This document shows positions 6,861 through 24,917 of a stretch of DNA of 64,000 nucleotides, in pieces. The first letter of the stretch is position 1, and each line of letters starts with the position of its first letter. The stretch covers positions 1 through 64,000 of the forward strand of contig NZ_CANMIW010000009.1 of the NCBI RefSeq assembly GCF_947498005.1. Direction: 5' to 3'. Made by a program: the position numbers and the translations under genes. Source of the stretch: an uncultured Winogradskyella sp. (GTDB lineage: Bacteria; Bacteroidota; Bacteroidia; Flavobacteriales; Flavobacteriaceae). The notes under the pieces were generated by a model that had not been told where the DNA came from, searched no databases, and saw only the letters and a program-made list of their open reading frames with translations.

Positions 6861-7595
6861 TTAGATAAGGTTTGTTGGATCTAGTTCCATCGTTTTAAAA
6901 GAACAAAAGTTGTTTTTAACTATTACAGCTGCTATGTATTCCGCACGTGGTTTAAAAGTGTGAAAATTCCATTCTTTTTTTTCTGATTTATCCCAATGTG
7001 TTTCTTGCATTTCTGCTATGAAATCGTGGTCTAAAGTCACAGAAAATGAATCTAAAGGAAACGATAAGCCACTTCCTATTGCTTTTATAAGAGCTTCTTT
7101 ACGTGTCCAACATCTGTAAAAAGCGATATATTGTTCGGGTTTAGAAATTAATTGAAGGTCAGCTATTTCTTTTTTAGAGAAGAAGTTTGAAGCAATTTCA
7201 AAGGTATCGAAATCATTTTTTATTTTCTCAATGTCTATTCCAATAGTATGATTGGTTACAAAACCAATAGTAGCAAGATCTCCAGAATGCGATACATTAA
7301 AATTTAAATCTGTGTTTTGTTCAAATTTTGGTTTACCAAATTCACCATAACTAAACATTATATCTTGAGCATTTCTATTTAAATATTTTCCAGAGAGTGT
7401 GCGTAAAACACCTTTAGAAACAACGTAACATCTTCGGTCTTTATCAAATTTAAATTTGTTTGCGCGCGCTTGTTCATCTTGGGAGAGTAGGTGGAAATAC
7501 TTTTTAACAGCCTCATCCTCTATATTAAAATCGAAAGACCAAATGTGTACTGTATTTGGTTCTAAATTAAAAAGTGATTCTGTCAATTTAATCAT
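6861..7595 (-). CDS. 4'-phosphopantetheinyl transferase, Sfp type
   Basis: Transfers the phosphopantetheine arm from CoA to the Ser of carrier proteins, activating the PCP domains of this cluster. In the 244-residue form, GIDIE places metal-binding Asp121 and Glu123, and the WTRKEALIKAIGSGL motif (about 163-177) supplies the third acidic residue Glu167 and the catalytic Lys. NVSHSGD is also typical. I chose the ATG at 7593-7595 instead of the TTG at 7638-7640, because the longer form would overlap the upstream NRPS gene and adds 15 residues outside the family. It is the last gene of the minus-strand operon, 29 bp after the thioesterase-bearing NRPS gene. Confidence 0.9.
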   Translation of the reverse strand: MIKLTESLFNLEPNTVHIWSFDFNIEDEAVKKYFHLLSQDEQARANKFKFDKDRRCYVVSKGVLRTLSGKYLNRNAQDIMFSYGEFGKPKFEQNTDLNFNVSHSGDLATIGFVTNHTIGIDIEKIKNDFDTFEIASNFFSKKEIADLQLISKPEQYIAFYRCWTRKEALIKAIGSGLSFPLDSFSVTLDHDFIAEMQETHWDKSEKKEWNFHTFKPRAEYIAAVIVKNNFCSFKTMELDPTNLI

Positions 7596-7624
7596 GGATT
7601 TAAATTGCTTTCTAAAAGGTATTA

Positions 7625-8971
7625 TTAATCTGCAATACAAGCTTCAATTTGTTTAGAAACATAAGAAATATCTGGTTCTTTAAAAAGAGTTCTGTGATTA
7701 CCTTTTGTATAATAAAGTTTTAATTCTCCGTTAGAAATTTCTTTCCAAGAGTCAATGGTAATTTTTTGTAAATCTTTATGTGGCTTTTTAGTAAGAATGA
7801 GAGATATATCGCCATTATGAGGTCTAAATTGGTAAGCCAAACATATTTGTCTTAAATTTTCTTGCAATTTCTCTAAATCTCTGGTGTTTTCATTTCCAAA
7901 ATATTTAGCAATAAAAGGTCTTATATGCCATAATCTGTCTTCAAAATAATGCTTCGTACTTATCAATGGGTTTTTAGTAAATCTAATAGCGAAAGATTTA
8001 AGTCGCGCTTTTAATCTTAAGGGTGTGTTTAAAGACCAAGGTGATGCCATGGTATCCATTACTATAATATTTACTTTATGTCCAAGTTTGGAGAACTCAA
8101 TAGCCATTTCATTTCCTACAGTTACACTAAAGCAATAGACTAAAATATTATAAGTTCCTTTTGTCTGGACAGATTGTATAGCCTTCATATAATCTGAAGT
8201 CATTTCCTCAACATTTTTATGCATTTCTCCTCCATAAAGTCCTGACGGTTCTAGTGCATATATTGGACGATCAGTTTTCATGTACTTAGTCAAGAGGTTA
8301 TAAAATACTACGTGTCCTCCTCCTGAATGTATACAGAATAGAGGTTTTTTATTTCCTTTTTCTCTTAATGGAACTAGAAATTTAAATTGTTCTTTTTCTT
8401 CATCAATTTCTTTGTGAGATAATTGTTTGCTAAGCGTTTTTATAGTTTGATGTTCAAACAACTGATTCGCAGATAAAGAGATTCCTAATTTTCTAGCTTT
8501 AGCAATTATTTGAATACTCAATATAGAATCGCCTCCAATTTCAAAAAAGTTGTCGTCTGGTAAAACAGGCGAAAAATTTAATACTTCTTCCCAAATATTG
8601 ATTAATTGCTGTTCAACTTCAGTTAGAGTAGAATTATTTTCAGAGAGTGAAGTTTCAATTGTTGTGTTCTTCTGTTCAATCGGTTTTAAATGCTTTCTAT
8701 CCACCTTTCCGTTGGGAAGCAATGCGAAATTTGCAATTGAATGAAAAGTAGAAGGTACCATATAATCTGGTAACTGTTTTTTTAAATAGGTCTCAATGTC
8801 CTTAAGATTAAAACCTTTTTCTGTTTCAACATAGGCAACAAGACGTTTTGGTTTATCAGAACTATTAGAATCTGAACCATTTGAAACCAACTCTTTTAGT
8901 TTTAAAAGAATCAATTGGCGATCTTCATTGGGTAACTGATCTAATTTATTTTCTAAAATATCTTGTCTCAT
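7625..8971 (-). CDS. NRPS terminal protein: adenylation C-terminal lobe, PCP, Cys-type thioesterase
   Basis: Third piece of a split NRPS module, 448 residues. It starts with a helical segment and then only the C-terminal lobe of an adenylation domain: LVAYVET, the A9-like LPDYMVP at 67-73 and the A10 motif LPNGKVDRK at 85-93 with catalytic Lys89. A PCP follows (NFFEIGGDSIL, phosphopantetheine Ser149), then a type I thioesterase from about 205. In the thioesterase the usual GYSFGG nucleophile elbow reads VYCFSV, giving Cys280, with Asp306 (VMDT) and His426 (GNHRTLF) completing a triad. It overlaps the methyltransferase gene by 4 bp (ATGA). Inferred role: complete the adenylation domain in trans, carry the last amino acid and release the product. 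Confidence 0.87.
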   Translation of the reverse strand: MRQDILENKLDQLPNEDRQLILLKLKELVSNGSDSNSSDKPKRLVAYVETEKGFNLKDIETYLKKQLPDYMVPSTFHSIANFALLPNGKVDRKHLKPIEQKNTTIETSLSENNSTLTEVEQQLINIWEEVLNFSPVLPDDNFFEIGGDSILSIQIIAKARKLGISLSANQLFEHQTIKTLSKQLSHKEIDEEKEQFKFLVPLREKGNKKPLFCIHSGGGHVVFYNLLTKYMKTDRPIYALEPSGLYGGEMHKNVEEMTSDYMKAIQSVQTKGTYNILVYCFSVTVGNEMAIEFSKLGHKVNIIVMDTMASPWSLNTPLRLKARLKSFAIRFTKNPLISTKHYFEDRLWHIRPFIAKYFGNENTRDLEKLQENLRQICLAYQFRPHNGDISLILTKKPHKDLQKITIDSWKEISNGELKLYYTKGNHRTLFKEPDISYVSKQIEACIAD

Positions 8972-9756
8972 TTTACAGCCTTAATTATTACCATTGAATC
9001 TGCCCACCACGTATCTTTTACATCTGTTGGCATATCTAAAGGAATGATATGGACACTAAAGGAACTAAAATACTTTAATAACATATGTTGATGCTCTCTG
9101 CTTAAAGAGGCAATTTCATTTGAAAAATAAGTAAAACTTCCGCCTGGTTTTAAGTGTTTAGCTGCATGATGAAAAAAGTGTTCTGCAAATGTAATACTTG
9201 CATTAACGTATTGCATATATTCATCTTCGTTGAGTGGATACGTATGAAAAAATATTCCATCAAATAATCCTAAGTCATCAATACAATCTTGCCAGAGACT
9301 ATGTACCAACCTGATGTTCTTTGCTGTATATTTAGATTTCCACGGCTTAAAATGTTGTTCTATAACCAAATCATTACATTCAATAATGGTGTGAGAGTCT
9401 ATAGGATGTTCTTGAATCATATCTGCAGAAATTCCTCTGCCAAAACCTACTTCTAAAATATCGCCTCCATCTTCCGCTATTGCTTTTGCCATAGCTTTCA
9501 TCAGTGGAATTTGCCAATCTTCCATGATTTCTTGAGCCGTTAATTGGGCTTGACCTCTTTCTGATAAACCAACAACTGTTTCGCCTGGAACAAAGTTTTT
9601 TGTTTGTTCATTGAGTGCGTTTAATTCGGCTGAAAATTCTTTTAAAGCTCTATTAACTACAGCGTTTCGTTGTGCAGCTTTTGGTGGATTTATAAAATTA
9701 TCCTCTTTTACAACTAATGTGACTTCAAAATTTTCTGTTCTTTTAATTCTTTTCAT
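8968..9756 (-). CDS. SAM-dependent methyltransferase resembling guanidinoacetate methyltransferase
   Basis: 262 residues with an N-terminal helical region (1-75) and a class I methyltransferase fold. The SAM motif is ILEVGFGRGISA (about 100-111), followed by IIECNDLVIEQ, LWQDCIDDL, FDGIFFHTYPL and HLKPGGSFTYFSN. This order and wording closely match guanidinoacetate methyltransferase (LEVGFG, IIECNDGVF, FDGILYDTYPL, LLKPGG). The Asp of the family's YDTYPL, which contacts the guanidino group, is replaced by His here (FHTYPL), so the substrate may differ. The gene lies between the two halves of a split adenylation domain, 11 bp after the first NRPS gene and overlapping the next by 4 bp. Methylation of the amino acid on the adjacent PCP is inferred. 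Confidence 0.83.
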   Translation of the reverse strand: MKRIKRTENFEVTLVVKEDNFINPPKAAQRNAVVNRALKEFSAELNALNEQTKNFVPGETVVGLSERGQAQLTAQEIMEDWQIPLMKAMAKAIAEDGGDILEVGFGRGISADMIQEHPIDSHTIIECNDLVIEQHFKPWKSKYTAKNIRLVHSLWQDCIDDLGLFDGIFFHTYPLNEDEYMQYVNASITFAEHFFHHAAKHLKPGGSFTYFSNEIASLSREHQHMLLKYFSSFSVHIIPLDMPTDVKDTWWADSMVIIKAVK

Positions 9757-9767
9757 AACACTATGAC

Positions 9768-12692
9768 TTATTTCAATTGTTTGAATAAGTACGCTTTATC
9801 ATTGGTATCTAATACTTCAACAGAGTGAAGCAATTTTTTTATCTCTACTGAATTTAAGTTTTCAATTAATAATTGAGCCAGTTCTGAAGCTTCTACCGCA
9901 GTATTGGTGTTTATTGAATTGATATTCTTATTTGCAGTTTCCGCAACGACAACAGCTTTTTTAACCATTTTAAATTCATTAAGGACAGTCTCAATTTCGT
10001 TGAGTTCTACGCGAAATCCTCTAATTTTTACTTGTTGATCTGCTCTGCCTAAAAATTCAATATTACCATCTGTATTATATTTAACGAGATCACCTGTTTT
10101 GTACAATGTAATGTTCTTCTCGTTTTTTAGATAAGCTTTTTCAGTTAAGTCTGGTCTGTTTATGTAATAACCTGCTAAACTTGGTCCACTCACATAAAGT
10201 TCTCCAGTTACACCAAAAGGTACTCGTTTTAGGTTTGAATTTAATATATGAACATTAGCATTAGCGACACTTTTTCCTATTGGTATTTTATTGTGTTCTA
10301 AATCTAATTCTGAAATTTTATGCGCAATACACCAAACGGTAGCTTCTGTTGGTCCATATTCGTTATATAAATTTACATTAGGAAGTGTTGAAAAATGCTT
10401 TTTTGCAACCGTAACAGAACACGCTTCACCAGCAACCATTACTGTTCTTAAACTGGTAAGTTTAGCGTTGTTACAATGTTCTAATATCAAATGATATAGT
10501 GATGGAAGCATCAAGGCGTGGCTTATCTTATTAGCCTCAATTATTTTACCAATTCCTTCAATATCTTGCTCTAAACGTTGTTCTGAAATTACTAAATTTC
10601 CTCCTGTACAGAGTGTCCAGAAAATACCAGCTTTAGAACTGTCAAAAGAAATGGAAGACATTAAAAGGAAAGCTGTTGGGTTATTATCATAAAATGCTAA
10701 GCGTCCTGCTGTAGAATTAATTATGTTTTTATGTGTAATGGGTACACCTTTAGGATTTCCTGTGCTTCCTGATGTATAGATTACATAAGCCAGGTCAGTG
10801 TTTGATACTAAAGGTAATTTTTTATTAGTATCGTCAATATCTTCAACGGCTTCAATAGTTATTAAGTCCGTTTTAAATTCATTGAAAATCGGAGTTAAAG
10901 ATTGTTGTGTAATAATGCAATTTATATCAGCATCTTTTAATATAAAATCAATACGTTGTGAGGGATAATTTGGGTCTATTGGTAAGTAAGCGCAACCGGA
11001 TTTTAAAATGGCAAGTAAGCCAACAATCATATCAGTAGACCGTTCAATAGATAAGCCTACTATTTTATCGTTTACATTCTTCCTCGCAAGTAAACTATGA
11101 GCTAAGGCTGTAGCCCGTTTATCTAAATCTTTATAAGATAATTTTTCTGAGCCAAAAGTAACAGCTATAGTGTCTGGGTTTTTCTTAGCAATATCTTCAA
11201 TAATATGATGTATGCCTGTAAAGTTTTTAAAGATATGATTTGATGAGCTGTTATCTTTAGAGAAATACATCTTCTCATACGAGGTTAACATTGGTAGCTC
11301 AGCAATTGAATTATCTGAATTGCTAATGACTGCTTTTACTAAATTATTAAAATGTGCAGAAAAACGTTCTATTGTAGATTCATCAAATAGGTCTGTAGCA
11401 TATTCTAGAGTGGTTGCAAGTTGACCATCTTTTTCATTTATAAATAAGGTTAAATCGAATTTTGAAGATTTTAAATGAATGTCATTACGCTTTTTAAAAT
11501 CAATGTTATAATCATTGCTAGAGGTTTTTTCGTCACTGTTAAAAACAAACATTACCTGAAAAAACGGGTTCATGCTTAACGATCTGCTAGGTAATAATTC
11601 ATTAACTAAATAGTTAAATGGAATATCATTATTAGAGAATGCATCTAACGTGTTTTTTCTAACTTTAGACAGTAATTCTTTAAATGAATTGTCTTCGTTA
11701 AACTGCGTACGCAAAACAATAGTGTCTACAAAGAAGCCTAGCAAATCTTGCAATGATTTATCCTTTCTATTAGTAAAAGGTAGGCCAATTAAAATATCTT
11801 TTTGGTTGGTGTATCTATATAAAAGTGTGTAGAAAATAGTTAGAGTTACCACAAAAGGAGTTGTTTCCATTTGTTTTGAAAACGCTAAAAGACCTTCAGA
11901 ATCTTCTTTAGATAGTAGAGATGAATAATGCGCTCCTTCATACGAAGGTTGTAATGGTCTTTTATAATCCGTAGGTAATTCTAAAACTGGTATTGTGCCA
12001 GACAATTTATGTTTCCAATAGTCAACTTGTTTCGTTGGTAATGTTCTATGCTGATCCCAATAAGCATAATCTTGATACTGAATAGGCAGTTCTTTTGGCT
12101 GTATGGTTTCGCCTTTTGATAGTTTTGTGTAATACTCAGCTAATGAATTGATGAAATGTCGCATAGACCATTCATCAATAATAATGTGATGTATGTTTAT
12201 GGACAAGATATGGTGTTCCTCAGACAGTTTTAGTAGCGAAACTCTAGTAAGTGGTGCAGCATTAAGGTTGAAAGGTAGAATGATTTCTTCCGCTATAAAA
12301 TCGTTCGCTTTTTGCTTAGCCTCATCTAATTGAAAGGTACTGAAATCTACGGTGTTGATTTTTAATTTGAAATCCGAGGCAATCTTAATCGTTGTTTGTC
12401 CATCTTCAATAGGAAAGTAAGATCTGAGACTTTCTTGTTCTTCAATGATTAAATCGAAACTTTTAGATAGGAATTCAAAATTTAAATCTCCTAGTATATT
12501 ATAAGACTCAGCATGATTGTAAAACGAATTACTAGGATATAACTGTTGTAAAAACCAAAGACGCTGTTGCCCTTTAGACAAAGGAATAGCTTTACCAAGA
12601 GGTGCTTTATTTATTTTAAGCAACGTTGATGCATTTCGCTTTTGATTTTTCCACTGACTGAGTAGGGAACTTTTGTCTATTTCACTTTTCAT
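9768..12692 (-). CDS. NRPS condensation domain plus truncated adenylation domain (ends after A8)
   Basis: 974 residues. The condensation domain (about 30-470) has PLSKGQQRLWFLQQ and the active-site HHIIIDEW with His168, His169 and Asp173. The adenylation core has A3 TSGSTGNPKG (640-649), A4 region SFDSSKAG, A5 NEYGPTEATVW, A7 YKTGDLVKY and A8 GRADQQVKIRGFRVE (about 882-896). It then ends in a helical tail without A9, A10 or a PCP, all of which lie in the gene beginning at 8971. By eye the specificity residues read D-S-A-M-M-A-E-V-W plus Lys from the other protein; this matches no code I can recall, but Asp235 implies an alpha-amino acid. It begins 25 bp after the HupE-like gene. Confidence 0.9.
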   Translation of the reverse strand: MKSEIDKSSLLSQWKNQKRNASTLLKINKAPLGKAIPLSKGQQRLWFLQQLYPSNSFYNHAESYNILGDLNFEFLSKSFDLIIEEQESLRSYFPIEDGQTTIKIASDFKLKINTVDFSTFQLDEAKQKANDFIAEEIILPFNLNAAPLTRVSLLKLSEEHHILSINIHHIIIDEWSMRHFINSLAEYYTKLSKGETIQPKELPIQYQDYAYWDQHRTLPTKQVDYWKHKLSGTIPVLELPTDYKRPLQPSYEGAHYSSLLSKEDSEGLLAFSKQMETTPFVVTLTIFYTLLYRYTNQKDILIGLPFTNRKDKSLQDLLGFFVDTIVLRTQFNEDNSFKELLSKVRKNTLDAFSNNDIPFNYLVNELLPSRSLSMNPFFQVMFVFNSDEKTSSNDYNIDFKKRNDIHLKSSKFDLTLFINEKDGQLATTLEYATDLFDESTIERFSAHFNNLVKAVISNSDNSIAELPMLTSYEKMYFSKDNSSSNHIFKNFTGIHHIIEDIAKKNPDTIAVTFGSEKLSYKDLDKRATALAHSLLARKNVNDKIVGLSIERSTDMIVGLLAILKSGCAYLPIDPNYPSQRIDFILKDADINCIITQQSLTPIFNEFKTDLITIEAVEDIDDTNKKLPLVSNTDLAYVIYTSGSTGNPKGVPITHKNIINSTAGRLAFYDNNPTAFLLMSSISFDSSKAGIFWTLCTGGNLVISEQRLEQDIEGIGKIIEANKISHALMLPSLYHLILEHCNNAKLTSLRTVMVAGEACSVTVAKKHFSTLPNVNLYNEYGPTEATVWCIAHKISELDLEHNKIPIGKSVANANVHILNSNLKRVPFGVTGELYVSGPSLAGYYINRPDLTEKAYLKNEKNITLYKTGDLVKYNTDGNIEFLGRADQQVKIRGFRVELNEIETVLNEFKMVKKAVVVAETANKNINSINTNTAVEASELAQLLIENLNSVEIKKLLHSVEVLDTNDKAYLFKQLK

Positions 12693-12717
12693 TAGGGAAA
12701 ATTTTGAAAATGAGAAC

Positions 12718-13971
12718 TTAAGACCACAAGCCTAAAGCATTAATAATACGTCTTATAAAACTCTTAAACTGATCGTCTAAACCAAATTTGATATCGAAAG
12801 TGCGTTCTATTACCCAATATAAGGAAACAATAATTAGAAATATTGAACCATAAAGTAAAATCTTCTTATAGATTTTTGTCTTTCTTAGCAGATACAGAAC
12901 AGGAAACATCATTGCTATAATTAACAATTGACCGATTTCTACACCAATATTAAAGCCTAATAAAGATAAACCAAGGTTTTCTGATGATAGACCTAAATCG
13001 GATAAAACACTTGCAAATCCAAAACCATGAAAAAGCCCAAATACAAATGCAATAATCCAATCTTTACCTTTAAAAATAGGTTTTATATTATGGTATGCAG
13101 CTAACCCAATGGATAATGCAATTATAGTTTCAACAAATCTTGATGGTAGCTTCACGATCTCAAGTGAAGCCAAACTCAGCGTAATTGTATGAGCAATAGT
13201 AAAAAATGTGATTATTTTTATAACATAAAAGAAGGCATCTTTAAAACTCTCTACTGGTACCCAATTAGAAGATTCTATGCTTACTGAATTACCTGTAACG
13301 TTTGTCTCTTTTTTTCTAACTCTACGAACCACTGAAGGTAAAATCAATGCTAATAAAAATAGAATATGGTCAAGACCAATCCAAATATGCCAAACACCTT
13401 GTTTGATCATTGCGATTAAACCTTTCCATATAGACGTGTCTGAGAGATCTAATGTAGCTTCTGTTTCATTTGGTGTAAAACTCAGTGAGATATTTGCTTC
13501 TTGATTTATGACACCTGCTGCCCAACTATTTTCTGTGATTAAATAACCTCTATGTGTATCATCCTTTTCATAAACAACGTCATATTTTACATCTAGCAAT
13601 TGTGGTAATTTTTCCATATTGTCTAGCTTAAAGAAAACCTGAACCATTGTGCCTTGGGAAATATCTAGTAAACCAACATTTTTTAAGACTATGTTGTGCG
13701 ATCCATATTTAGATGAGAATGCGGCATGTTTTAAGATGTATGCTTTTAGTTGCTCTTCGTATGGTTTGAATTCTTCGGCAGTGACGTTATCTCTAAGGTT
13801 TAAATTAAAGACTTTGTTTATTTCACGTGTATTAATTTCAAATCGTCCTTCAATACCATTGGTTTCATAAACACTAATAAAGATATAACTTTGATTAGGG
13901 AAATGAGCAGCACTAATCATTGGTGTTAACAACAGTAGTATAAAAAGCGATTTTAGTAGTAGTTTTTTCAT
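12718..13971 (-). CDS. HupE/UreJ-family membrane protein
   Basis: 417 residues: signal peptide (about 1-21), a periplasmic domain to about residue 190, then a multi-pass membrane domain. The membrane part carries the HupE/UreJ signature: GVWHIWIGLDHILFLLAL, AHTITLSLAS, YHNIKP and GLFHGFGFASVL. Related HupE/UreJ proteins are linked to nickel or cobalt permeation, and the His/Asp-rich helices fit metal binding. Here it lies between the ornithine cyclodeaminase and NRPS genes (gaps 45 and 25 bp), so it is part of the biosynthetic operon. It may handle a metal or the product; the sequence does not decide. Confidence 0.85.
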   Translation of the reverse strand: MKKLLLKSLFILLLLTPMISAAHFPNQSYIFISVYETNGIEGRFEINTREINKVFNLNLRDNVTAEEFKPYEEQLKAYILKHAAFSSKYGSHNIVLKNVGLLDISQGTMVQVFFKLDNMEKLPQLLDVKYDVVYEKDDTHRGYLITENSWAAGVINQEANISLSFTPNETEATLDLSDTSIWKGLIAMIKQGVWHIWIGLDHILFLLALILPSVVRRVRKKETNVTGNSVSIESSNWVPVESFKDAFFYVIKIITFFTIAHTITLSLASLEIVKLPSRFVETIIALSIGLAAYHNIKPIFKGKDWIIAFVFGLFHGFGFASVLSDLGLSSENLGLSLLGFNIGVEIGQLLIIAMMFPVLYLLRKTKIYKKILLYGSIFLIIVSLYWVIERTFDIKFGLDDQFKSFIRRIINALGLWS

Positions 13972-14016: not shown

Positions 14017-15078
14017 CTATATTGATACAGATTTTAGCATAAAGTGATAAGGGTTTTTTGCATCTTCTGAAATGTTTTCAATTGAGATTTTTTGTCCAAT
14101 TCCATACTCTTTTGCTAGGTCTAAAAATAAGTCCATAACAACTTGGTCTTCTAAAGCCCAACCAGTAGAGTCAAATACAGTTCTTTTGTTTTTAGCATAG
14201 GCATAAGTTTCTTTATGCTTAACCAAATTAGATAAATCAGGACCAATTTCAGCATCTGTCAATTGCTGGCATTCACCTTCGATTTTTGCTTGTTCTAAAA
14301 AATCTGGACAAACTAAACTTTGCTTTAAAAAATCTAAAGGAAGTTCTACCTTTCCGGGAAAATCAGAACCGATAGCATTGATATGAATATGTTCGTTAGT
14401 TTCTAAGTTATTAAATAAAGGGCCAGTACCAACGTCTATTGATGTTTCTGTACAAACAATATCACTTGTGTTTAAAATATTTTCAATTGATGAAAATATA
14501 ATCTCAATGTTAAGGTCTAACATTTCTACGCGATTACTAAAAGATGTCATAGTTGCGGTATCCACATCAAATAATAATACTTTTTTGATGTTGAATACTC
14601 TAGATAAAGCATGAAGCTGTGTTACCGACTGTGCACCACAACCAATTAATCCCAAAATTGAACTTTGCTCTTTAGCCAAAAATTTTGAAGCAACAGCAGA
14701 TGCTGCACCTGTTCTTAAAGCTGTGAGTAAAACGCCATCTACTAAACCTTTAAGATGGCCAGTTGTTGTGCAGTATGATGAAATAGATGATAAAATAGTA
14801 GGTAAATCTAGTTTTTCAGGGTTTCTAGGATGGTAACCTACAACCTTTATAACCACTTCTTCTCCTAATTTATGAACAGGCATCCATTCTACTAATCCAG
14901 GATCATTTATATCGTAGTTAAAACCAGAGCGAATTGGGATTTCAGTTTTTTCAGCATCGTATGCTTTAATACTCTCTGTTGTTCTCCTTATTAGTGTGTC
15001 CATTAATTTATTGAAACCATAAGTTTCTACTATTAAATTGACATCACTAGCAGATAAAATTAGTGTATTCTTCTTCAT
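14017..15078 (-). CDS. Ornithine cyclodeaminase family enzyme
   Basis: Predicted NAD-dependent conversion of L-ornithine to L-proline with release of ammonia. The 353 residues are typical. Features are EWMPVHKLGEEVVIKVVGYHP, LVDGVLLTALRTGAASAVASK, the nucleotide-binding GLIGCGAQSVTQL and NAIGSDFPGKVEL, which matches the active-site Asp segment of bacterial ornithine cyclodeaminase (GGDCPGKTEL). It is the first gene of the minus-strand operon. Across the divergent promoter region lies a proline-activating and proline-oxidising gene set, so a role in supplying proline for pyrrole formation is a good inference. Relatives making other amino acids (for example SbnB-like enzymes) cannot be excluded. 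Confidence 0.85.
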   Translation of the reverse strand: MKKNTLILSASDVNLIVETYGFNKLMDTLIRRTTESIKAYDAEKTEIPIRSGFNYDINDPGLVEWMPVHKLGEEVVIKVVGYHPRNPEKLDLPTILSSISSYCTTTGHLKGLVDGVLLTALRTGAASAVASKFLAKEQSSILGLIGCGAQSVTQLHALSRVFNIKKVLLFDVDTATMTSFSNRVEMLDLNIEIIFSSIENILNTSDIVCTETSIDVGTGPLFNNLETNEHIHINAIGSDFPGKVELPLDFLKQSLVCPDFLEQAKIEGECQQLTDAEIGPDLSNLVKHKETYAYAKNKRTVFDSTGWALEDQVVMDLFLDLAKEYGIGQKISIENISEDAKNPYHFMLKSVSI

Positions 15079-15953: not shown

Positions 15954-17108
15954 GTGAATTTTTCTTGGAGCCCAGAACAGATTGATTTTAAGGATAAAAT
16001 AATTGCATTCGCAAAAGAAAATCTTAATGATGATATTGAAGAACGCGATCAAAATTTAAGTTTTTCAAGAGTACTCTGGAAAAAGTGTGCTGAATTTGGG
16101 ATTCAAGGTTTGTCAGTGCCAAAGAAGTATGGAGGGAAATTTAAGGACATTGATTTACTAACAGCAACACTTGCTATGGAAGGTTTAGGTTATGGTAGTA
16201 ATGATAATGGCTTGCCATTTGCTTTAAATGCGCAAATGTGGACTGTGCAATTACCGCTTTTTGAATTTGGCACTGAAGCTCAGCGAGAAAAGTTTTTAAG
16301 GTCTATGGTAATTGGTGACAAAATAGGATGCCATGCACTAACGGAACCAGAAGCCGGTTCTGATGTGTTTAATATGAAAACACATGCTAAAAAAGTAGAA
16401 GGCGGCTATATTCTAAATGGTCAGAAACGCTTAATCACTTTTGGACCAGAAGCAGATATCGCTTTGGTATTTGCAAATGTTAATCCAAAAATTGGAAAAT
16501 GGGGAGTAACTGGCTTTATAGTAGAAAAAGGTACCAAAGGATTTACACAAGGTGTAAACAAATCTAAAATGGGATTAAGAACAGTACCCATTGGAGATTT
16601 ATTTTTCAAAGATTGCTTTATTCCAGAAGAAAATAGATTAGGAAAAGAAGGGTCTGGTTGGGCAATTACCACGTATTCTTTAGAGTATGATCGTTGCAGT
16701 ATTTTAGCAAGTCAATTAGGTGCTATGGAGCGTCAATTAGAAACCAGTATTAAATTTGTACAAGAAAGAAAACAATTTGGTCAAGCTATAAATACATTTC
16801 AATCTGTGTCTAACCGAATAGCAGATATGAAACTACGTTTAGAAACCTCAAGACTTTTACTATATAAGGTTGCTTGGCTTAAAAATGAAGGCGATTCTGC
16901 AATGTTAGATGCAGCATTGTTAAAACTACAATTAAGTGAGAGTTTTATAACGTCTAGTTTAGATGCTGTTCGTAACCATGGCGGAAGTGGTTATATAACA
17001 GAATATGGTGTAGAAAGAAATCTTAGAGATGCTGTTGGTGGTGTTTTATATGCTGGTACTTCAGATATTCAACGAAACATTATTTCACAATTATTATTTT
17101 CTAAATAA
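15954..17108 (+). CDS. Acyl-CoA dehydrogenase-like prolyl-PCP oxidase (PltE/RedW type)
   Basis: FAD enzyme of the acyl-CoA dehydrogenase fold, 384 residues. Typical features are GLSVPKKYGGKF, GCHALTEPEAGSDV (about residues 124-137), the GWAITTYSLEYDR region, RKQFGQAI, and the C-terminal RNLRDAVGGVLYAGTSDIQR. In pyrrole-forming clusters such enzymes oxidise L-prolyl-S-PCP to pyrrolyl-2-carboxyl-S-PCP. That role is inferred from the two genes that follow: a stand-alone adenylation enzyme starting in its stop codon (TAATG overlap) and a stand-alone PCP. The start is GTG at 15954; no in-frame ATG occurs before about residue 70. A fatty-acid role is possible but poorly supported by context. Confidence 0.85.
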   Translation: MNFSWSPEQIDFKDKIIAFAKENLNDDIEERDQNLSFSRVLWKKCAEFGIQGLSVPKKYGGKFKDIDLLTATLAMEGLGYGSNDNGLPFALNAQMWTVQLPLFEFGTEAQREKFLRSMVIGDKIGCHALTEPEAGSDVFNMKTHAKKVEGGYILNGQKRLITFGPEADIALVFANVNPKIGKWGVTGFIVEKGTKGFTQGVNKSKMGLRTVPIGDLFFKDCFIPEENRLGKEGSGWAITTYSLEYDRCSILASQLGAMERQLETSIKFVQERKQFGQAINTFQSVSNRIADMKLRLETSRLLLYKVAWLKNEGDSAMLDAALLKLQLSESFITSSLDAVRNHGGSGYITEYGVERNLRDAVGGVLYAGTSDIQRNIISQLLFSK

Positions 17109-18700
17109 TGTATAACGAAATGATTTATACAATCCCAAAAATATTAGAAAATGCAGTTTTAGAGCATCCAGATAAGGTGGCTCTTAGATACATGTCTCAA
17201 TCTATTAGTTATAAAGAATTTTATGAAAAATCAGAATGCTTAGCGATTACTTTGCTCCAGCTTAATGTAAAAAAAGGCGATCGTATAGGTATTTATATGA
17301 ATCGCTGTATGGAATCATTTATAGCGGTTTACGGTATTACAATGGCAGGAGCCGTATTTGTTCCTTTAGATCCTACTGCGCCAAACGAACGTACGCAATT
17401 TTTAATAGACGATTGTAAAATTGAACATCTAGTTACGGTGCCAGCACAATCTAGGGCAATTGTTAAAATAGCTGCAGTTTCAGAAGGTTTACAAACAATA
17501 ATTGGGCTAGATAAAGATTTAGATGTAAACACAGTATCTTGGTCTAATGTTTATAAATCAGACAGAAATTCTGTTGAGTTTCCTAGAGTTTTAGGTAAAG
17601 ACTTAGCGTATATAATGTATACTTCAGGTTCTACAGGATTACCAAAAGGTATTATGCATACACACAATAGTTGCTTGGCTTACGCTAAAGGTTCTAAAAC
17701 GCTTTATGATGTTGCTGCTCTAGATGTTATTGCAAGCCATGCTCCATTGCATTTTGATATTTCAACATTTGCCTATTTTACAGCACCATTGGCTGCATCT
17801 ACAATCGTTGTTTTGTCTGACGCGCATACCAAAATGCCAGTAAGTTTAGCACAGTTAATAGAACAAGAAAAAATTAGTATTTGGTATTCTGCACCACAAG
17901 CATTAATACAATTGTTCCTCAATGGACTAATTGAAGAAAAGGATTTTTCATCGCTACGATGGGTTTTATTTGGAGGCGAAGTATTTCCTAATAAATATAT
18001 TAAGCAATTATTAGCGCTTTGGCCTCAAGCCAAATTTAGCAATGTTTATGGTCCTGCAGAAGTTAATCAATGTACATATTTTAACATTGACAATACTTAT
18101 GAGATTAATGAAGATTTACCTCTTGGTACAGTTTGGGAAAATACAGATTACCGAATTTTAGACACTAATGATAAACAGGTAGAAAAAGGAACTTCAGGAG
18201 TTTTAGCGATAAGAAGCGAAACCATGATGTTGGGCTATTATAATAACAAGCCACTAACAGATAAATCATTTTATCACGAGTCAATCCTATCAGGTTATGA
18301 TCATGTTTTTTTTAAAACAGGCGACGTCGTCAAAGAAAATGAGATAGGTCAATTACTGTTTATTGGTAGAAATGATAGGCAAGTAAAAATTAGAGGTTAT
18401 CGTGTAGAATTAGATGAAATTGAAGCTATACTCCTTCAACATATAGATGTGAGAGAAGCAGTGGCATATGTAGAAAAAAATAATAATGAGTCTCGTGATT
18501 CGGTTACAGCGGTTGTTTTGTTAAAAAATGAAACAAGTGAGATTGATATCAAAGAATTAAAAATACACTGTTCGCAAAATTTACCAAAATATGCTGTTCC
18601 GGAAGAAATTTATATAATGAATGAATTCCCAAGGACAACCTCAGACAAGATAGATAGAAATAAAATTCAAATAAAAATATCAGAAAACCATAATGGATAA
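17108..18700 (+). CDS. Stand-alone adenylation enzyme, probably L-prolyl-PCP ligase (PltF/RedM type)
   Basis: Activates an amino acid as aminoacyl-AMP and loads the PCP encoded next to it. 530 residues with A3 TSGSTGLPKG, A5 VYGPAEVNQ, A7 KTGDVVKE, A8 GRNDRQVKIRGYRVE and A10 TTSDKIDRNK, no condensation or carrier domain. Hand alignment to GrsA gives the specificity residues D-I-F-Y-L-G-V-Q-C-K, which resembles the D-L-F/L-Y-L-A-L-V-C-K pattern I recall for proline-activating enzymes of pyrrole pathways. With the upstream acyl-CoA dehydrogenase and downstream PCP this forms the classic three-gene pyrrole-2-carboxylate set. The gene overlaps its neighbours by 1 and 8 bp, indicating tight co-translation. 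Confidence 0.87.
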   Translation: MYNEMIYTIPKILENAVLEHPDKVALRYMSQSISYKEFYEKSECLAITLLQLNVKKGDRIGIYMNRCMESFIAVYGITMAGAVFVPLDPTAPNERTQFLIDDCKIEHLVTVPAQSRAIVKIAAVSEGLQTIIGLDKDLDVNTVSWSNVYKSDRNSVEFPRVLGKDLAYIMYTSGSTGLPKGIMHTHNSCLAYAKGSKTLYDVAALDVIASHAPLHFDISTFAYFTAPLAASTIVVLSDAHTKMPVSLAQLIEQEKISIWYSAPQALIQLFLNGLIEEKDFSSLRWVLFGGEVFPNKYIKQLLALWPQAKFSNVYGPAEVNQCTYFNIDNTYEINEDLPLGTVWENTDYRILDTNDKQVEKGTSGVLAIRSETMMLGYYNNKPLTDKSFYHESILSGYDHVFFKTGDVVKENEIGQLLFIGRNDRQVKIRGYRVELDEIEAILLQHIDVREAVAYVEKNNNESRDSVTAVVLLKNETSEIDIKELKIHCSQNLPKYAVPEEIYIMNEFPRTTSDKIDRNKIQIKISENHNG

Positions 18701-18946: not shown

Positions 18947-21900
18947 ATGAATTCAGAAATTAATTACATAGAGACAAATATAGCATTGACGCAAAGTCAA
19001 TTAATGCTTTGGGTTGGTCAAAAACTAAATCCAGAGAGTCCTATGTATAATATGGCACATTCTTTTGAGATTTCAGGTAAATTAGATGTGCGAATTTTTA
19101 AGCAATCTTTTAATGATTTAATCGCTAATTTAGATGTGTTCAGAATAACATTCAGTGAAGACAAAGGCATTCCATCTCAAAATGTTTTAGCGAATTTTCA
19201 ATATGATTTAGAAATTGTAGAGTTTTTAAACAGAAGTACATTAGATTTAGAAAAGGAATTACAAAACAGAACTATGCAAGTTTTTGATACTTCTCAACCT
19301 CTGTTTAATTCCGTTCTTTATAAGTTAGATACAGCTAAATATGTGTGGTTTTTAAATATGCATCATTTAGTTACAGATGCGACATCGTCTACTGTTTTAT
19401 TTGATAATTTTTCAAAGCTTTACCAACAACATTTAAATTCTGAAAACGAAAGTTTACCAGAAATTCCACAGTTTAGAGATTATCTAAAATTTGAAGCCAT
19501 TATTACACATGACAAAGAAAAAGATGATATTAGAAACTACTGGAAAGAAACGGCAAAAAAAGTAACTGCAGCACCTATTTTATATGGTCAAAAGAATAAA
19601 GAATCCACATCGTCTTCAACTAGAGTTTCTGTTAGTCTGGGCAAAGATCGTATTGCAAAATTAGAGCAGTTAGTGAGTTTGCCAGAGTTTCGCTGTTGGA
19701 CAAAAGATCTTACCTATTTCAATATATTTCTAACGGCATTATTTGTCTATATAAAGCGAGTAAGCAATGAAGAAAAATTAGCCATTGGTGCATTGTCTCA
19801 CAGTAGAGTGACCAATGCATTTAAGAAAACCGCAGGTATGTTTGTGGAATTGTTTCCGCTGGTTGCTGAGTTTTCTACTGATGATACATTTCTAACTTTT
19901 TACAATAAAGTACGAAATGAAACTAATAACTATTTATGTAACGCTCAACCAGGAATGGCAACTACAGAAGCAAGTAGCGGCTTTAACGTGGTGCTGAATT
20001 ATATAAAAGCTAGTTTTTCAGATTTTAATGGTAATTCTGTGACTTCAAAATGGATTCATCCTAATCATTGTGACGCAGCACATCATATGAGATGTACGGT
20101 TTATGATATGGATGGAACAGGAGATATAGAGTTGTTGTTTGATTTAAATACAGCAGTATTTAATTCTGAAATGCAAAAAAACACGCCATCACATTTCTTA
20201 AAAATATTAGACGCTTTTCTAGAAGATAATTCTCAATTAATAGACGTGCCTTCAATGATTAGCAAGGAAAGTATAAAAGAAGAATTAGACATGGTCGCTT
20301 TTAATAATTCTTACCCATCTTTCATAAATAAGATTACTGATGTCATTGAAAATTATTCAGACAAAATAGCTATTAGAGATAAATCGGAAACATACACATA
20401 TAATGATCTAAACAGGTTGTCTAACGCGCTTTGTTTTACGTTAAAAAATAAAGGAATTAAAGCAGGTGATCGTGTGGGTTTGCATATGTATAGGTCTGCT
20501 GATTACGTTATTTCTTTATTAGCTCTTATGAAATCTCATGTAACTTGTGTTCCTATTGCTGCCGATCAGGCCAAAGAGCGCATTAAGACTATATTAGAAG
20601 ATTCTGAGTGTAAATTGGTAGTGACAACGTCAAGTTTAAAAAAGAATTTAAAAGATTCTGCCATAGAGGTTTTTGATATTTCAGATAAAAGTTGGACGGA
20701 TAACAAATCCAATACTACGTTTACTCTACAGAAATTTAATCCTAACGAAATAGCCTACATATTATACACATCTGGTTCTACAGGGAAACCTAAAGGCATT
20801 AAAATTAAAGAACAAAGTGTCTCTAATTATTTACAGAGTTGTAATAATTTTTGGGGCGCGCAAACAAAGTTTGCATTCTGTACATCGATAAGTTTTGATA
20901 TAACGTATACGGCAATTTTATTGCCACTGTATCAAGGCGGAGAAATCATTGTTTATAAAGAGGATGAAGAAGGTCCAGATGGTTCGGTATTAAGAATGTT
21001 AGAAGATAATAGAGCAGATTCTATTGTGTTAACACCATCACATTTATTATTGTTTATTGGTAAAGGAAATGCTAATTGTAGCTTGAGAAATATTATAGTA
21101 TTAGGCGAAGATTTTAAAACGGATTTGGCCAATAAAATTAAAGAAGAGTACCACAAGGATACTAGTATTTATAATTTTTATGGTCCAGCAGAAGCTACTA
21201 TTGCTTGTGTGATTTCAAAATTTAACTCTGAAAAACATAAAGGTGTTTCGGTTCCAATAGGTAAACCTATAGCTAACACAATCGCCTTGGTGTTAGACGA
21301 CTATCTTAATCCTGTTCCTAAAGGTGTGGTTGGTACGCTTTTTATTGGTGGTCATGGTATTGCAGATGGTTACGTAAAACGTCCTAATCTTACAGCAGAA
21401 CTATTTATTACAAATCCATTTTTAAATACAGATAGACTTTACAATACTGGCGATTTAGTGAGACTTAATAGTGATAATGAGTTCGAGTTTTTAGGTCGAA
21501 AAGATAGTCAGGTAAAACTGAATGGTCATCGTATTGAGCTGAGAGAAATAGAATGTGTTTTAGAACAGATTGATGGCATTATTGAAGCCGTAACACTTGT
21601 TATAGAAAAAGATGATGGTGGATTAAATAAGAACGCACAATTGGTTGCCTTTTATAGAGGCGATTATGAACTTGAAGTGTCACAAATTCAAAATTATTTA
21701 GTTAGGAAGCTTCCAAGTTACATGATACCATTGCAATTTAAATATCTACATCACTTTCCGCTAACCACAAGCGCTAAAACGGACCGTAAAAAACTTAAAG
21801 ATGAAAATAATATAGGATTTAAGTCCAATGAAGCCTATATCGCACCAACAAATGAAATAGAAGAAATTGTTGCCAATGTATGGTCAGAGTTATTACATAT

Positions 21901-22090
21901 TGAAAAAATTGGGATCTATGATAACTTTATTGCACTAGGAGGACACTCATTATTAGCTATGAGAATTACAAGTGCTTTAAACGAAATACTAGAAATGGAA
22001 AACCCACTTGATAAAATTTTCGTATATCCTACTGTAGCCTCTTATGCAACCTATGTAGAGGAAACCATAATAAGCTTATTAGCCGAATAG
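18947..22090 (+). CDS. NRPS module: condensation, adenylation, PCP
   Basis: 1047 residues. The condensation domain (about 10-440) has LTQSQLMLWVGQKL and the active site HHLVTDA (His139, His140, Asp144). The adenylation domain has A3 TSGSTGKPKG (608-617), A5 NFYGPAEATIA, A7 YNTGDLVRL, A8 GRKDSQVKLNGHRIE and A10 TSAKTDRKK with Lys944. The PCP at the C-terminus has GGHSLL with Ser1001. Specificity residues by eye read D-I-T-V-I-L-F-I-A-K, which I cannot assign. There is no thioesterase, so the chain should pass to the condensation domain of the minus-strand protein ending at 12692. Inferred role: join pyrrole-2-carbonyl to the first amino acid. Confidence 0.92.
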   Translation: MNSEINYIETNIALTQSQLMLWVGQKLNPESPMYNMAHSFEISGKLDVRIFKQSFNDLIANLDVFRITFSEDKGIPSQNVLANFQYDLEIVEFLNRSTLDLEKELQNRTMQVFDTSQPLFNSVLYKLDTAKYVWFLNMHHLVTDATSSTVLFDNFSKLYQQHLNSENESLPEIPQFRDYLKFEAIITHDKEKDDIRNYWKETAKKVTAAPILYGQKNKESTSSSTRVSVSLGKDRIAKLEQLVSLPEFRCWTKDLTYFNIFLTALFVYIKRVSNEEKLAIGALSHSRVTNAFKKTAGMFVELFPLVAEFSTDDTFLTFYNKVRNETNNYLCNAQPGMATTEASSGFNVVLNYIKASFSDFNGNSVTSKWIHPNHCDAAHHMRCTVYDMDGTGDIELLFDLNTAVFNSEMQKNTPSHFLKILDAFLEDNSQLIDVPSMISKESIKEELDMVAFNNSYPSFINKITDVIENYSDKIAIRDKSETYTYNDLNRLSNALCFTLKNKGIKAGDRVGLHMYRSADYVISLLALMKSHVTCVPIAADQAKERIKTILEDSECKLVVTTSSLKKNLKDSAIEVFDISDKSWTDNKSNTTFTLQKFNPNEIAYILYTSGSTGKPKGIKIKEQSVSNYLQSCNNFWGAQTKFAFCTSISFDITYTAILLPLYQGGEIIVYKEDEEGPDGSVLRMLEDNRADSIVLTPSHLLLFIGKGNANCSLRNIIVLGEDFKTDLANKIKEEYHKDTSIYNFYGPAEATIACVISKFNSEKHKGVSVPIGKPIANTIALVLDDYLNPVPKGVVGTLFIGGHGIADGYVKRPNLTAELFITNPFLNTDRLYNTGDLVRLNSDNEFEFLGRKDSQVKLNGHRIELREIECVLEQIDGIIEAVTLVIEKDDGGLNKNAQLVAFYRGDYELEVSQIQNYLVRKLPSYMIPLQFKYLHHFPLTTSAKTDRKKLKDENNIGFKSNEAYIAPTNEIEEIVANVWSELLHIEKIGIYDNFIALGGHSLLAMRITSALNEILEMENPLDKIFVYPTVASYATYVEETIISLLAE

Positions 22091-22682: not shown

Positions 22683-24917
22683 ATGAAACAAATTATACTA
22701 AGTTTTGTGCTTTTAGCACTGTGCAATACCGTTTTTGCCCATGAAATAAACGGAACGATTACCAACGAAAATAATAAACCAATAGAAGGTGTAAATATTT
22801 ATAATCAAAATACAGGAGGTTACGCCTATACCAATGTCTCAGGATATTATGAATTAGATGATATTTCAGAAGGCGATGTCATCATCATTAGTGGGTTGGG
22901 TTATGAAAAACAAGAACTCATTATTTTAAATAGCCAATTAGACGGTACTATTAATATTGTATTACAAATTTCATCTGTGTCATTAGACCAAGTAGTATTG
23001 GTGTCTAAAGCTAATGTTTTGAGCCAGTTTGCTAATGTTGAAATTAAAACAAATCCTATAAAATCTGCACAAGAAATTTTAAGAAAGATACCAGGCTTAA
23101 TTATTGGTCAACATGCAGGTGGAGGAAAAGCAGAGCAAATATTCTTACGAGGATTCGATATAGACCATGGTACAGATATAGCAATTAGTACAGATGGAAT
23201 ACCTGTTAATTTACCTTCGCATGCACATGGACAAGGTTACGCAGATTTACACTTTGTAATTCCAGAGATTATAGATAATATCGATTTTGGTAAAGGGCCA
23301 TATTATGCAGACAAAGGGAATTTTAATACTGCAGGTTACATTGAATTAAATACTAAGAAATCTATTGAAGACAATCTTATAAAAATAGAAGCAGGAGATT
23401 TTAATACCTTAAGATCAGTTAACTTATTTAAAATCTCAGAAAGCAAACATAGTAGTGCATTTATTGCTTCTGAATTAGTTTTAACCGATGGTGTATTTGA
23501 TTCACCACAGAATTTTAATCGTTTAAATATTTTAGGACGTTATAATTTTAATAATTACGAAGATGAAGAACTAACATTATCTTTTTCACATTTTCAAAGT
23601 CGATGGGATGCTTCAGGGCAAATACCAACCAGAGCTGTGGAACAAGGAATCATTGGACGTTTTGGTGCTATTGATGATACTGAAGGCGGTAATACGAGTA
23701 GATCTAACATTTGGGTAAATCATACAAAGCAGTTAGATGAGCACCAACGTATAAAGTCTAAAGCGTTTATATCTAAATACGACTTTGAGTTATACTCTAA
23801 TTTTACATTCTTTTTAGAAGATCCTATTAATGGAGATCAAATTAAGCAAAAAGAAAACAGAACAATTATTGGTGCAGAAAGTGTTTACAATCGTACATTT
23901 CATATAGAAGATCACGACATTCAATTAAGTTTTGATGCAGGTGTTGGTTTTAGATACGATGATGTAAATGATGTAGAATTATCCAGAACAAAAAATCGTA
24001 AGGAAACTTTAGAAAGAATTGCCTTTGGTGATATAGATGAATTAAATGGGTATACTTTTTTAAGTGGTAATTTTAAATCTAAAAAGTGGACATTAAATCC
24101 AGGTCTAAGATTAGATTATTTTAAATTTAATTATGTAAATTTTCTAACTGATAATTATGAAACTTTAGGAGAATCTGATGTTATTGTTAGTCCTAAATTC
24201 AATACTATTTTTGCGGCATCTAAAGATTTACAATTATTTGCAAAATTAGGTTACGGTTTTCACTCAAACGATGCTCGTGTAGTTACAGCAAACACAGGAG
24301 AGGAAACGCTTCCGCATGCATTCGGTGCAGATCTTGGTGCTATTTTTAAGCCAGCAGACCGTTTGGTGTTAAATACATCACTGTGGTATTTATTGTCTGA
24401 GCAAGAATTTGTTTACGTCGGTGATGCAGGTGTTGTTGAACCTAGTGGAGAATCTAAACGTTATGGAATTGATTTTGGTTTCCGTTATCAAGTTACGGAT
24501 TGGTTATTTTTAAATAGTGATATCAATTATACAATAGCAAGAAGTACTGAAGAATTAGATGGCCAAGATTACATTCCCTTAGCGCCAGATTTTACATCTA
24601 CAGGTGCATTGACTGTAAACAATTTAAATGGGTTTTCTGGTAGTTTAAGCTATAGATTTGTAGATGATAGACCAGCAAATGAAGATAATTCTATTGTTGC
24701 AGATGGTTATTTTGTAACGGATTTTAATATTAATTATAACCTAACAAAAAGCTTAGTAATTGGAGTAGCAGTAGAAAACCTATTCGATGTAGAATGGAAT
24801 GAAACGCAGTTTGCTACAGAAACCAGATTATTTAATGAAACGGAATCTGTTGAAGAAATTACATATACACCAGGAACACCGTTTTTCTTAAGAGGTAAAA
24901 TTTCATTTACTTTTTAA
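22683..24917 (+). CDS. TonB-dependent outer-membrane receptor
   Basis: 744 residues: signal peptide (1-19), a carboxypeptidase-like regulatory domain (about 22-97; GTITNENNKPIEGVNIYN), a plug domain (AQEILRKIPGLI, IFLRGFDIDHGTDIA, DGIPVNLPSHAHGQG) and a beta-barrel ending in the aromatic residue of RGKISFTF, as outer-membrane proteins do. The plug carries a His-rich loop (SHAHGQGYADLHF), unusual enough to suggest metal-complex binding. It is the last gene of the plus-strand arm and is followed by a terminator. Not a SusC protein: it is shorter and has no SusD partner. Inferred role: import of the cluster's product or of a metal. Confidence 0.88.
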   Translation: MKQIILSFVLLALCNTVFAHEINGTITNENNKPIEGVNIYNQNTGGYAYTNVSGYYELDDISEGDVIIISGLGYEKQELIILNSQLDGTINIVLQISSVSLDQVVLVSKANVLSQFANVEIKTNPIKSAQEILRKIPGLIIGQHAGGGKAEQIFLRGFDIDHGTDIAISTDGIPVNLPSHAHGQGYADLHFVIPEIIDNIDFGKGPYYADKGNFNTAGYIELNTKKSIEDNLIKIEAGDFNTLRSVNLFKISESKHSSAFIASELVLTDGVFDSPQNFNRLNILGRYNFNNYEDEELTLSFSHFQSRWDASGQIPTRAVEQGIIGRFGAIDDTEGGNTSRSNIWVNHTKQLDEHQRIKSKAFISKYDFELYSNFTFFLEDPINGDQIKQKENRTIIGAESVYNRTFHIEDHDIQLSFDAGVGFRYDDVNDVELSRTKNRKETLERIAFGDIDELNGYTFLSGNFKSKKWTLNPGLRLDYFKFNYVNFLTDNYETLGESDVIVSPKFNTIFAASKDLQLFAKLGYGFHSNDARVVTANTGEETLPHAFGADLGAIFKPADRLVLNTSLWYLLSEQEFVYVGDAGVVEPSGESKRYGIDFGFRYQVTDWLFLNSDINYTIARSTEELDGQDYIPLAPDFTSTGALTVNNLNGFSGSLSYRFVDDRPANEDNSIVADGYFVTDFNINYNLTKSLVIGVAVENLFDVEWNETQFATETRLFNETESVEEITYTPGTPFFLRGKISFTF

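Follow-up and report, generated by a model that had tools for sequence, protein, structure and literature searches.

Within a 64,000-nucleotide stretch of DNA from an uncultured Winogradskyella sp., hereafter called the window, one adenylation (A) domain of a nonribosomal peptide synthetase (NRPS) was found to be divided over two proteins, P0001 and P0002, whereby the gene of a methyltransferase (MT), P0003, is located exactly at the division. Our reading, to which a probability of about 0.8 is assigned, is that P0001 and P0002 together make one A domain and work in trans with the separate MT. According to the available part of a study on engineered NRPSs (PMC9315016), an A domain is usually one chain, the C-terminal piece of which turns by about 140 degrees between its two reactions.

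The three-gene locus

All three genes lie on the minus strand. P0001 (9768..12692, 974 residues) consists of a condensation (C) domain, the A core with motifs A1 to A8 and a C-terminal tail, P0003 (8968..9756, 262 residues) is the product of an own gene at the A8/A9 seam, and P0002 (7625..8971, 448 residues) comprises a head, the A9/A10 subdomain, a carrier (T) domain and a thioesterase (TE) domain. Domain search identified condensation and AMP-binding domains in P0001, from which the AMP-binding C-terminal domain is absent, and located the carrier (PP-binding) and TE domains of P0002 to 8426..8611 and 7679..8344, respectively. The core motifs A3, A5, A7 and A8 (GRADQQVKIRGFRV, 10008..10049) were all read in P0001, and motifs A9 (LPDYMVP, 8753..8773) and A10 (NGKVD, 8699..8713), the latter with the catalytic lysine K89, belong to P0002. 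A core, MT and A9/A10 are three open reading frames and not one polypeptide, and by their order the MT sits between A8 and A9, as it does in interrupted (A-MT) adenylation domains.

The original prediction, which had been made from the letters of the window, is borne out in these respects: the cut in the A domain lies between A8 and A9, with the MT gene exactly between the halves, stops and starts are clean, an ATGA overlap joining the P0003 stop with the P0002 start, and the A10 lysine resides on another polypeptide than the A core. Its statement that the first protein ends just after A8 and the other begins just before A9 is right for the seam but not for the distances, as P0001 ends 79 residues past A8 and P0002 starts 66 residues ahead of A9, which is recurrent in relatives. 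A repeat search over 7600-12800 returned short imperfect pairs only and no sign of mobile insertion.

Recurrence of the split among relatives

An even draw of 397 Flavobacteriaceae genomes gave an MT match in 13, the window's own among them. The 12 others were fetched; in 10 of these loci all three parts are separate intact frames, and L025, with 106 N in the stretch, has its core gene in two frames and no MT start, the parts still being separate. A scan of named genomes with an alignment of 11 MTs yielded 65 loci; these include the contigs of 11 of the 12 fetched loci, and the whole set comprises the 65, G246 and the window. L032 and L051 are one genome, and many records are draft or metagenome-assembled, whereby single phylum names may be wrong.

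The MT is an own gene downstream of the A core in 47 of the 65 loci (at a distance in L069; incomplete in L051 and L052) and is fused to the A core in 12 (L066, L071, L073-L075, L079, L081, L082, L084, L086, L087 and L091). It is located away from a continuous A domain in L072 and L085 and lies in two frames in L078 and L088, the latter of the fused kind; the architecture of L054 and L083 could not be classed. The MT end is on the contig in 64 loci (L091 runs off its contig), and in none of these does the MT frame continue into A9/A10. A separate A9/A10-carrier gene was identified in 57 of the 65 loci, that is in 46 of the 47 own-gene loci (not in L076, where the contig ends), in 9 of the 12 fused loci and in L078 and L088; the fused loci in which none was seen are L086 as well as L087 and L091, whose contigs end. 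MT and A9/A10 share a frame, parted by one stop codon, in L053, L055 and L070.

Own-gene MTs were found in Bacteroidota (30), Pseudomonadota (7), Rhodothermota (4), Chloroflexota (2), Acidobacteriota (2), Gemmatimonadota (1) and Planctomycetota (1), fused MTs in Planctomycetota (5), Cyanobacteriota (2), Verrucomicrobiota (2), Pseudomonadota (2) and Calditrichota (1), and split forms occur in ten phyla in total. On the unrooted MT tree, which does not give the direction of change, the fused state requires two changes and all three known states require four; the A-core tree is of a quick kind, with 27 of its 61 inner branches open. Motifs were read automatically, whereby some were missed: A3 was returned as None in 17 rows having a core, and A10 in 4 of the 50 A9-matching rows (L038, L061, L064 and L070), its lysine later being seen in L038 and L070 by alignment and in L061. 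For L064 no A10 was read, and its head row appears out of frame. For L067, L081, L082, L084 and L088 A9/A10 was read from the printed sequence after only the carrier had been detected, L084 being the weakest case.

The comparison of homologous clusters, proposed along with the original prediction, revealed that the separate three-part layout recurs in relatives. The A8/A9 split is a real and old design recurring across many phyla and not a sequencing error, and within one gene-cluster family, the survey suggests, such splits are the norm.

The layout downstream of A9/A10 varies. A gene of the type A9/A10-T-C followed by C-T-TE without an A domain is common (L017:10341-14730 by Pfam; the long-form L027 and L053), and a short A9/A10-T-TE is found instead in, for example, the window, L065, L035, L038 and L042. 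Several relatives carry a tandem pair of carrier domains after A9/A10, e.g. L028, L029, L031, L037, L039, L043, L046 and L049.

Separated halves and continuous counterparts

L066 (Phycisphaeraceae) has its A-MT gene on the plus strand, and A9/A10-T-TE is encoded on the minus strand. In a gammaproteobacterial draft (L069/L105) the A core gene ends at 9282, and the frames of MT and A9/A10 start at 13812 and 14691, respectively, whereby the gap of more than 4 kb between A core gene and MT holds genes of the opposite strand.

Two relatives possess a continuous A domain, and in neither was an MT found inside it. In Rhodohalobacter (L085/L103) it is part of a 1510-residue frame, and the MT, which is elsewhere on the contig on the other strand, groups with those of the window and L065; its placement inside the flavobacterial split clade (support 99/94) suggests that this MT gene was acquired by transfer. 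In Myxococcota (L072/L104) a 1980-residue frame has a continuous first A domain and the MT is likewise elsewhere; the second A domain of L104 is cut by the contig end and its code differs. As the two continuous domains share the selectivity code of the split domain (DSALMAEVW and DSAMIAEVW), they are its counterparts.

That assembly frameshifts, stop errors or gene decay broke one A-MT-T gene is next to negligible as an explanation. Broken copies do exist, namely the MTs in two frames of L078 and L088, the incomplete MT frames of L051 and L052 and the broken core gene of L025/L052; however, the MT is an own gene downstream of the A core in most loci, from many assemblies and with similar start and stop places, the halves are on opposite strands in L066, and core, MT and carrier are under purifying selection, the ratio of nonsynonymous to synonymous substitution rates (dN/dS) between the window and L065 being 0.14 for the A core, 0.07 for the MT and 0.11 for the T domain. 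The original prediction had named a continuous gene in related genomes together with an assembly error as what would overturn it: some continuous relatives were found, and assembly error was rejected because the split recurs in independent assemblies.

Scarcely more credible is that recoding (frameshifting, stop read-through or restart) yields some continuous A-MT-A9/A10 protein. Where MT and A9/A10 meet, short overlaps (ATGA, for instance) are frequent, and the single same-frame stop codons of L053, L055 and L070 would fit recoding as well, but genes as far apart as those of L105, or on opposite strands as in L066, cannot give one chain, and recoding was rejected on this evidence.

Selectivity and conservation of the two halves

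The code columns D, S, A, E, V and W (DSxxxAEVW) are invariant in 46 of 46 rows, window included, and the variable columns hold A/V/T, M/C/L/G/S and I/M/V/L/S. The code of P0001, DSAMMAEVW, taken with the A10 lysine is close to the histidine code DSALIAEVWK, and L063 has DSALIAEVW; DSALIAEVWK is among the histidine codes listed in the available part of PMC12283262. P0001 is thus predicted from sequence to be a histidine-activating A core, with L-His as its selectivity. In P0002 the A10 residues N87, G88 and K89 are invariant in 23 of 23 aligned rows.

These conserved residues bear on the idea that the split A domain is a dead remnant, a different A domain of the cluster loading the P0002 carrier. 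The window has two more complete A domains that would be at hand for this, a stand-alone A domain (17108..18700, plus strand) and the A domain of a C-A-T module (18947..22090, plus strand). Against it, selectivity code and lysine are invariant across phyla, and in the window's cluster only P0001 is without A9/A10 and only P0002 has A9/A10 without a core; as both other A domains have their own A9/A10, the orphan core and the orphan A9/A10 have no partner there but one another. The remnant explanation was rejected on the invariant code and lysine and on this complementarity, and is regarded as improbable.

The methyltransferase P0003

P0003 matches guanidinoacetate methyltransferase (GAMT; PDB 3orh) over residues 72-212 with an E value of 3.4e-27, and no PDB chain other than GAMT, those of integrated NRPS A-MT domains included, was returned at E<=0.01. 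In Pfam only MTS was matched, under its cut-off, and in NCBIfam nothing beyond weak general methyltransferases at E<=0.1. Judged by these matches, P0003 is of GAMT type and not of the usual NRPS N-methyltransferase family. The similarity to GAMT (3orh, 1xcj) concerns the catalytic domain, whereas P0003 has an extra N-terminus of about 70 residues and a His (H171) where the GAMT chains have the Asp before TYPL, a residue which we take to bind the guanidino group. The window has H171, which is invariant in 11 of 11 aligned rows, and of 64 rows 54 show a His at this position, the pattern having failed to read the other 10. Carrier-bound histidine is the likeliest P0003 substrate, and methylation may fall on its imidazole or its alpha-amine. 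In open-licence full texts the combination of guanidinoacetate methyltransferase, nonribosomal peptide and adenylation was not found.

The notion in the original prediction of an ordinary integrated A-MT domain broken in three is not supported in that form, as no one-piece relative with this MT was seen among the 64 loci holding the MT end, the continuous domains of L103 and L104 have no internal MT and the MT is not of the usual NRPS type.

A weightier alternative, albeit an unlikely one, assumes the split to be functional but the MT to be merely an operon neighbour acting on a different residue or on the completed peptide, its position at the seam being an accident of insertion. The MTs apart from continuous A domains (L085/L103 and L072/L104) and the one far from its A core (L069/L105) fit this assumption, as does L026 (G246), where the MT (9837-10100) is cut to 87 residues, the N-terminal 57 and the C-terminal 30, its frame still being open and its start and stop retained; as the split is kept there, the MT is not needed to maintain it. 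On the other side, 47 of the 65 loci have the MT behind the A core and 12 have both fused, the fused state needing two changes on the tree, the core-MT distance correlation is the highest of those determined (r 0.79), and the MT is kept beside histidine modules of the same code even when freestanding. The shortened MT, which occurs in one of two genomes of its genus, was examined as a possible adaptor between the halves, whereby dN/dS of its remaining parts (or the ratio of the respective proportions, pN/pS, where dS was saturated) was 0.16-0.53 as compared to 0.10-0.18 for one intact control pair.

Tail and head

The tail after A8 (9771..10007, 79 residues) and the head of P0002 (8852..8971, about 40 residues) are presumed to be docking elements. 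Over 57 rows, window included, the post-A8 stretch shows a strand (V.eAhV) and, after a loop, a helical part in which L..L and hE.L patterns occur, and in a model of the fused relative L071 the corresponding part forms three helices (447-490), at low to middling confidence. The pre-A9 stretch follows the pattern M....h..RI..LS.....LL over 50 rows, and the model of P0002 residues 1-190 places two helices in the head (3-11 and 15-30), the block having a predicted local distance difference test score (pLDDT) of 71-84; dN/dS of the head between the window and L065 is 0.23. Tail and head are absent from the continuous relatives L103 and L104, which fits docking, and they look like docking helices joining the halves. 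The head model also matches A-T and carrier pieces of known NRPSs; we take the head to resemble common NRPS linker helices, and it may be no more than a common linker.

Comparison with known systems

By analogy, the closest case and proof of principle for trans assembly is the Crz1/Crz2 pair of corallorazine, for which the available part of the report (PMC11342130) gives no turnover by C2-A2-MT with glycine alone and near-quantitative turnover with Crz2. Assembly in trans, for which the original prediction had seen a need, is shown by this pair to be feasible and would, on this analogy, be needed in the window's cluster as well. As in the window, A9/A10 and carrier are on the next gene and the MT is followed directly by a stop; in Crz1/Crz2, however, an N-methyltransferase is fused to the A core, conventionally embedded, and glycine is activated, whereas the window has a third protein, an MT of another family, and histidine as the predicted substrate. 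The Crz-type fusion of MT and A core, not present in the window, is found in 12 of the 65 relatives. The pair was reported as unique by its authors in the portion of PMC11342130 available, whereas split forms with a GAMT-type MT were seen here in ten phyla; in the open-licence full texts on split adenylation domains corallorazine was the only characterised case among the matches listed. New with respect to Crz are the third protein, the other MT family, the predicted histidine, the phylum spread, the halves lying apart or on opposite strands and the continuous relatives of the same code.

In interrupted A-MT domains such as TioS AMA4 and KtzH the MT lies between A8 and A9 (available part of PMC11355689). 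These are one chain with A9/A10 after the MT, whereas here the GAMT-type MT ends its protein. The fused model of L071 was aligned with TioS AMA4 (PDB 5wmm) over A and MT (582 residues, Z 50.8) with a root-mean-square deviation of 11.1, the high value of which suggests a different domain arrangement in the model. In type S engineered NRPSs, modules were cut in A-T linkers and paired by artificial zippers and still yielded product, and a further three-part construct failed (PMC9315016, part available); in contrast, the cut in the window is natural and lies between A8 and A9.

Neighbouring genes

On the minus strand, a 4'-phosphopantetheinyl transferase gene (6861..7640) overlaps the end of P0002, and two recurrent neighbours, a HupE/UreJ-type membrane protein (12718..13971) and an ornithine cyclodeaminase/mu-crystallin family enzyme (14017..15078), lie beyond P0001. 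They are followed on the plus strand by an acyl-CoA dehydrogenase of PigA or prolyl-carrier dehydrogenase type (15954..17108, below curated cut-offs). The HupE/UreJ-type protein adjoins the cluster in several phyla (e.g. L050, L062, L063, L064, L072 and L080), and a TonB receptor is also in the window (listed at 22683-24917); together with the predicted histidine residue this hints at a metal-binding product.

In relatives, a PP-loop domain with CxxC pairs is inserted between A8 and A9 of the neighbouring module's A domain (L026:912-5054, minus; L018:15220-19377, plus, the same contig as L030; 17 loci of the named set, e.g. L053, L064, L072 and L085). It matches the N-acetyl sugar amidotransferase WbuX at E 2.6e-33, below the cut-off, and the A-domain code beside it is DLTLIGEVG in 9 of the 17 loci and similar to this in the others, a type of code that we take to be Asn/Asp-like. 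The window's own module (18947-22090) is without such an insert. A literature listing on PP-loop and NRPS adenylation showed nothing on an insert of this kind, and an amidotransferase-like insert within an A domain may be new.

Proposed mechanism and implications

The suggested mechanism assumes that the P0001 core binds ATP and, as predicted, L-histidine, whereby P0002 would supply the swinging A9/A10 subdomain with the catalytic lysine, already joined to its carrier. Tail and head would dock P0001 to P0002, which would close on P0001 for adenylation and then turn to load its own carrier. The resulting His-S-carrier of P0002 would be shown to the separate MT, to the upstream condensation domain and to the thioesterase. 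As to its origin, the MT gene may have arrived at the A8/A9 seam long ago, bringing its own stop; in some lineages core and MT would have become fused, and in two relatives, which have a continuous A domain with this selectivity, the MT is located elsewhere.

Several observations weigh against this reading. L083 and L086 extend several kb past the MT, yet no A9/A10 gene lies beside it, nor was one found genome-wide in these drafts at the search threshold, and L054, a 3.4-kb contig, has no A core ahead of the MT and a condensation domain behind it. The split of L026 is intact on both sides of its shortened MT. Docking of tail and head is what we infer from pieces modelled apart and not as a complex, and the tail is weakly conserved between the window and L065 (dN/dS 0.36, 47% identity); for A9/A10 of this pair, where dS is saturated, pN/pS is 0.31. 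The code columns were mapped by motif, a mapping on which the histidine assignment rests. The distance correlations over 46 rows (core-MT 0.79, core-A9/A10 0.69, MT-A9/A10 0.49; 0 of 999 permutations each; L051, L052, L055, L067 and loci missing a part left out) speak for the reading but would also be expected from shared ancestry alone.

Taken further, and with somewhat less than even confidence, the split may represent an ancient class of NRPS module with a detachable arm, in which an A9/A10-carrier shuttle docks on the histidine core via paired helices, visits a stand-alone MT and returns. The natural split offers evolved docking parts at a cut that is wanted by engineers, and a separate A9/A10 protein lets both half-reactions be studied by mixing proteins. 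If the detachable-arm class holds true, a working solution to cutting A domains at the hinge would exist in bacteria of about ten phyla.

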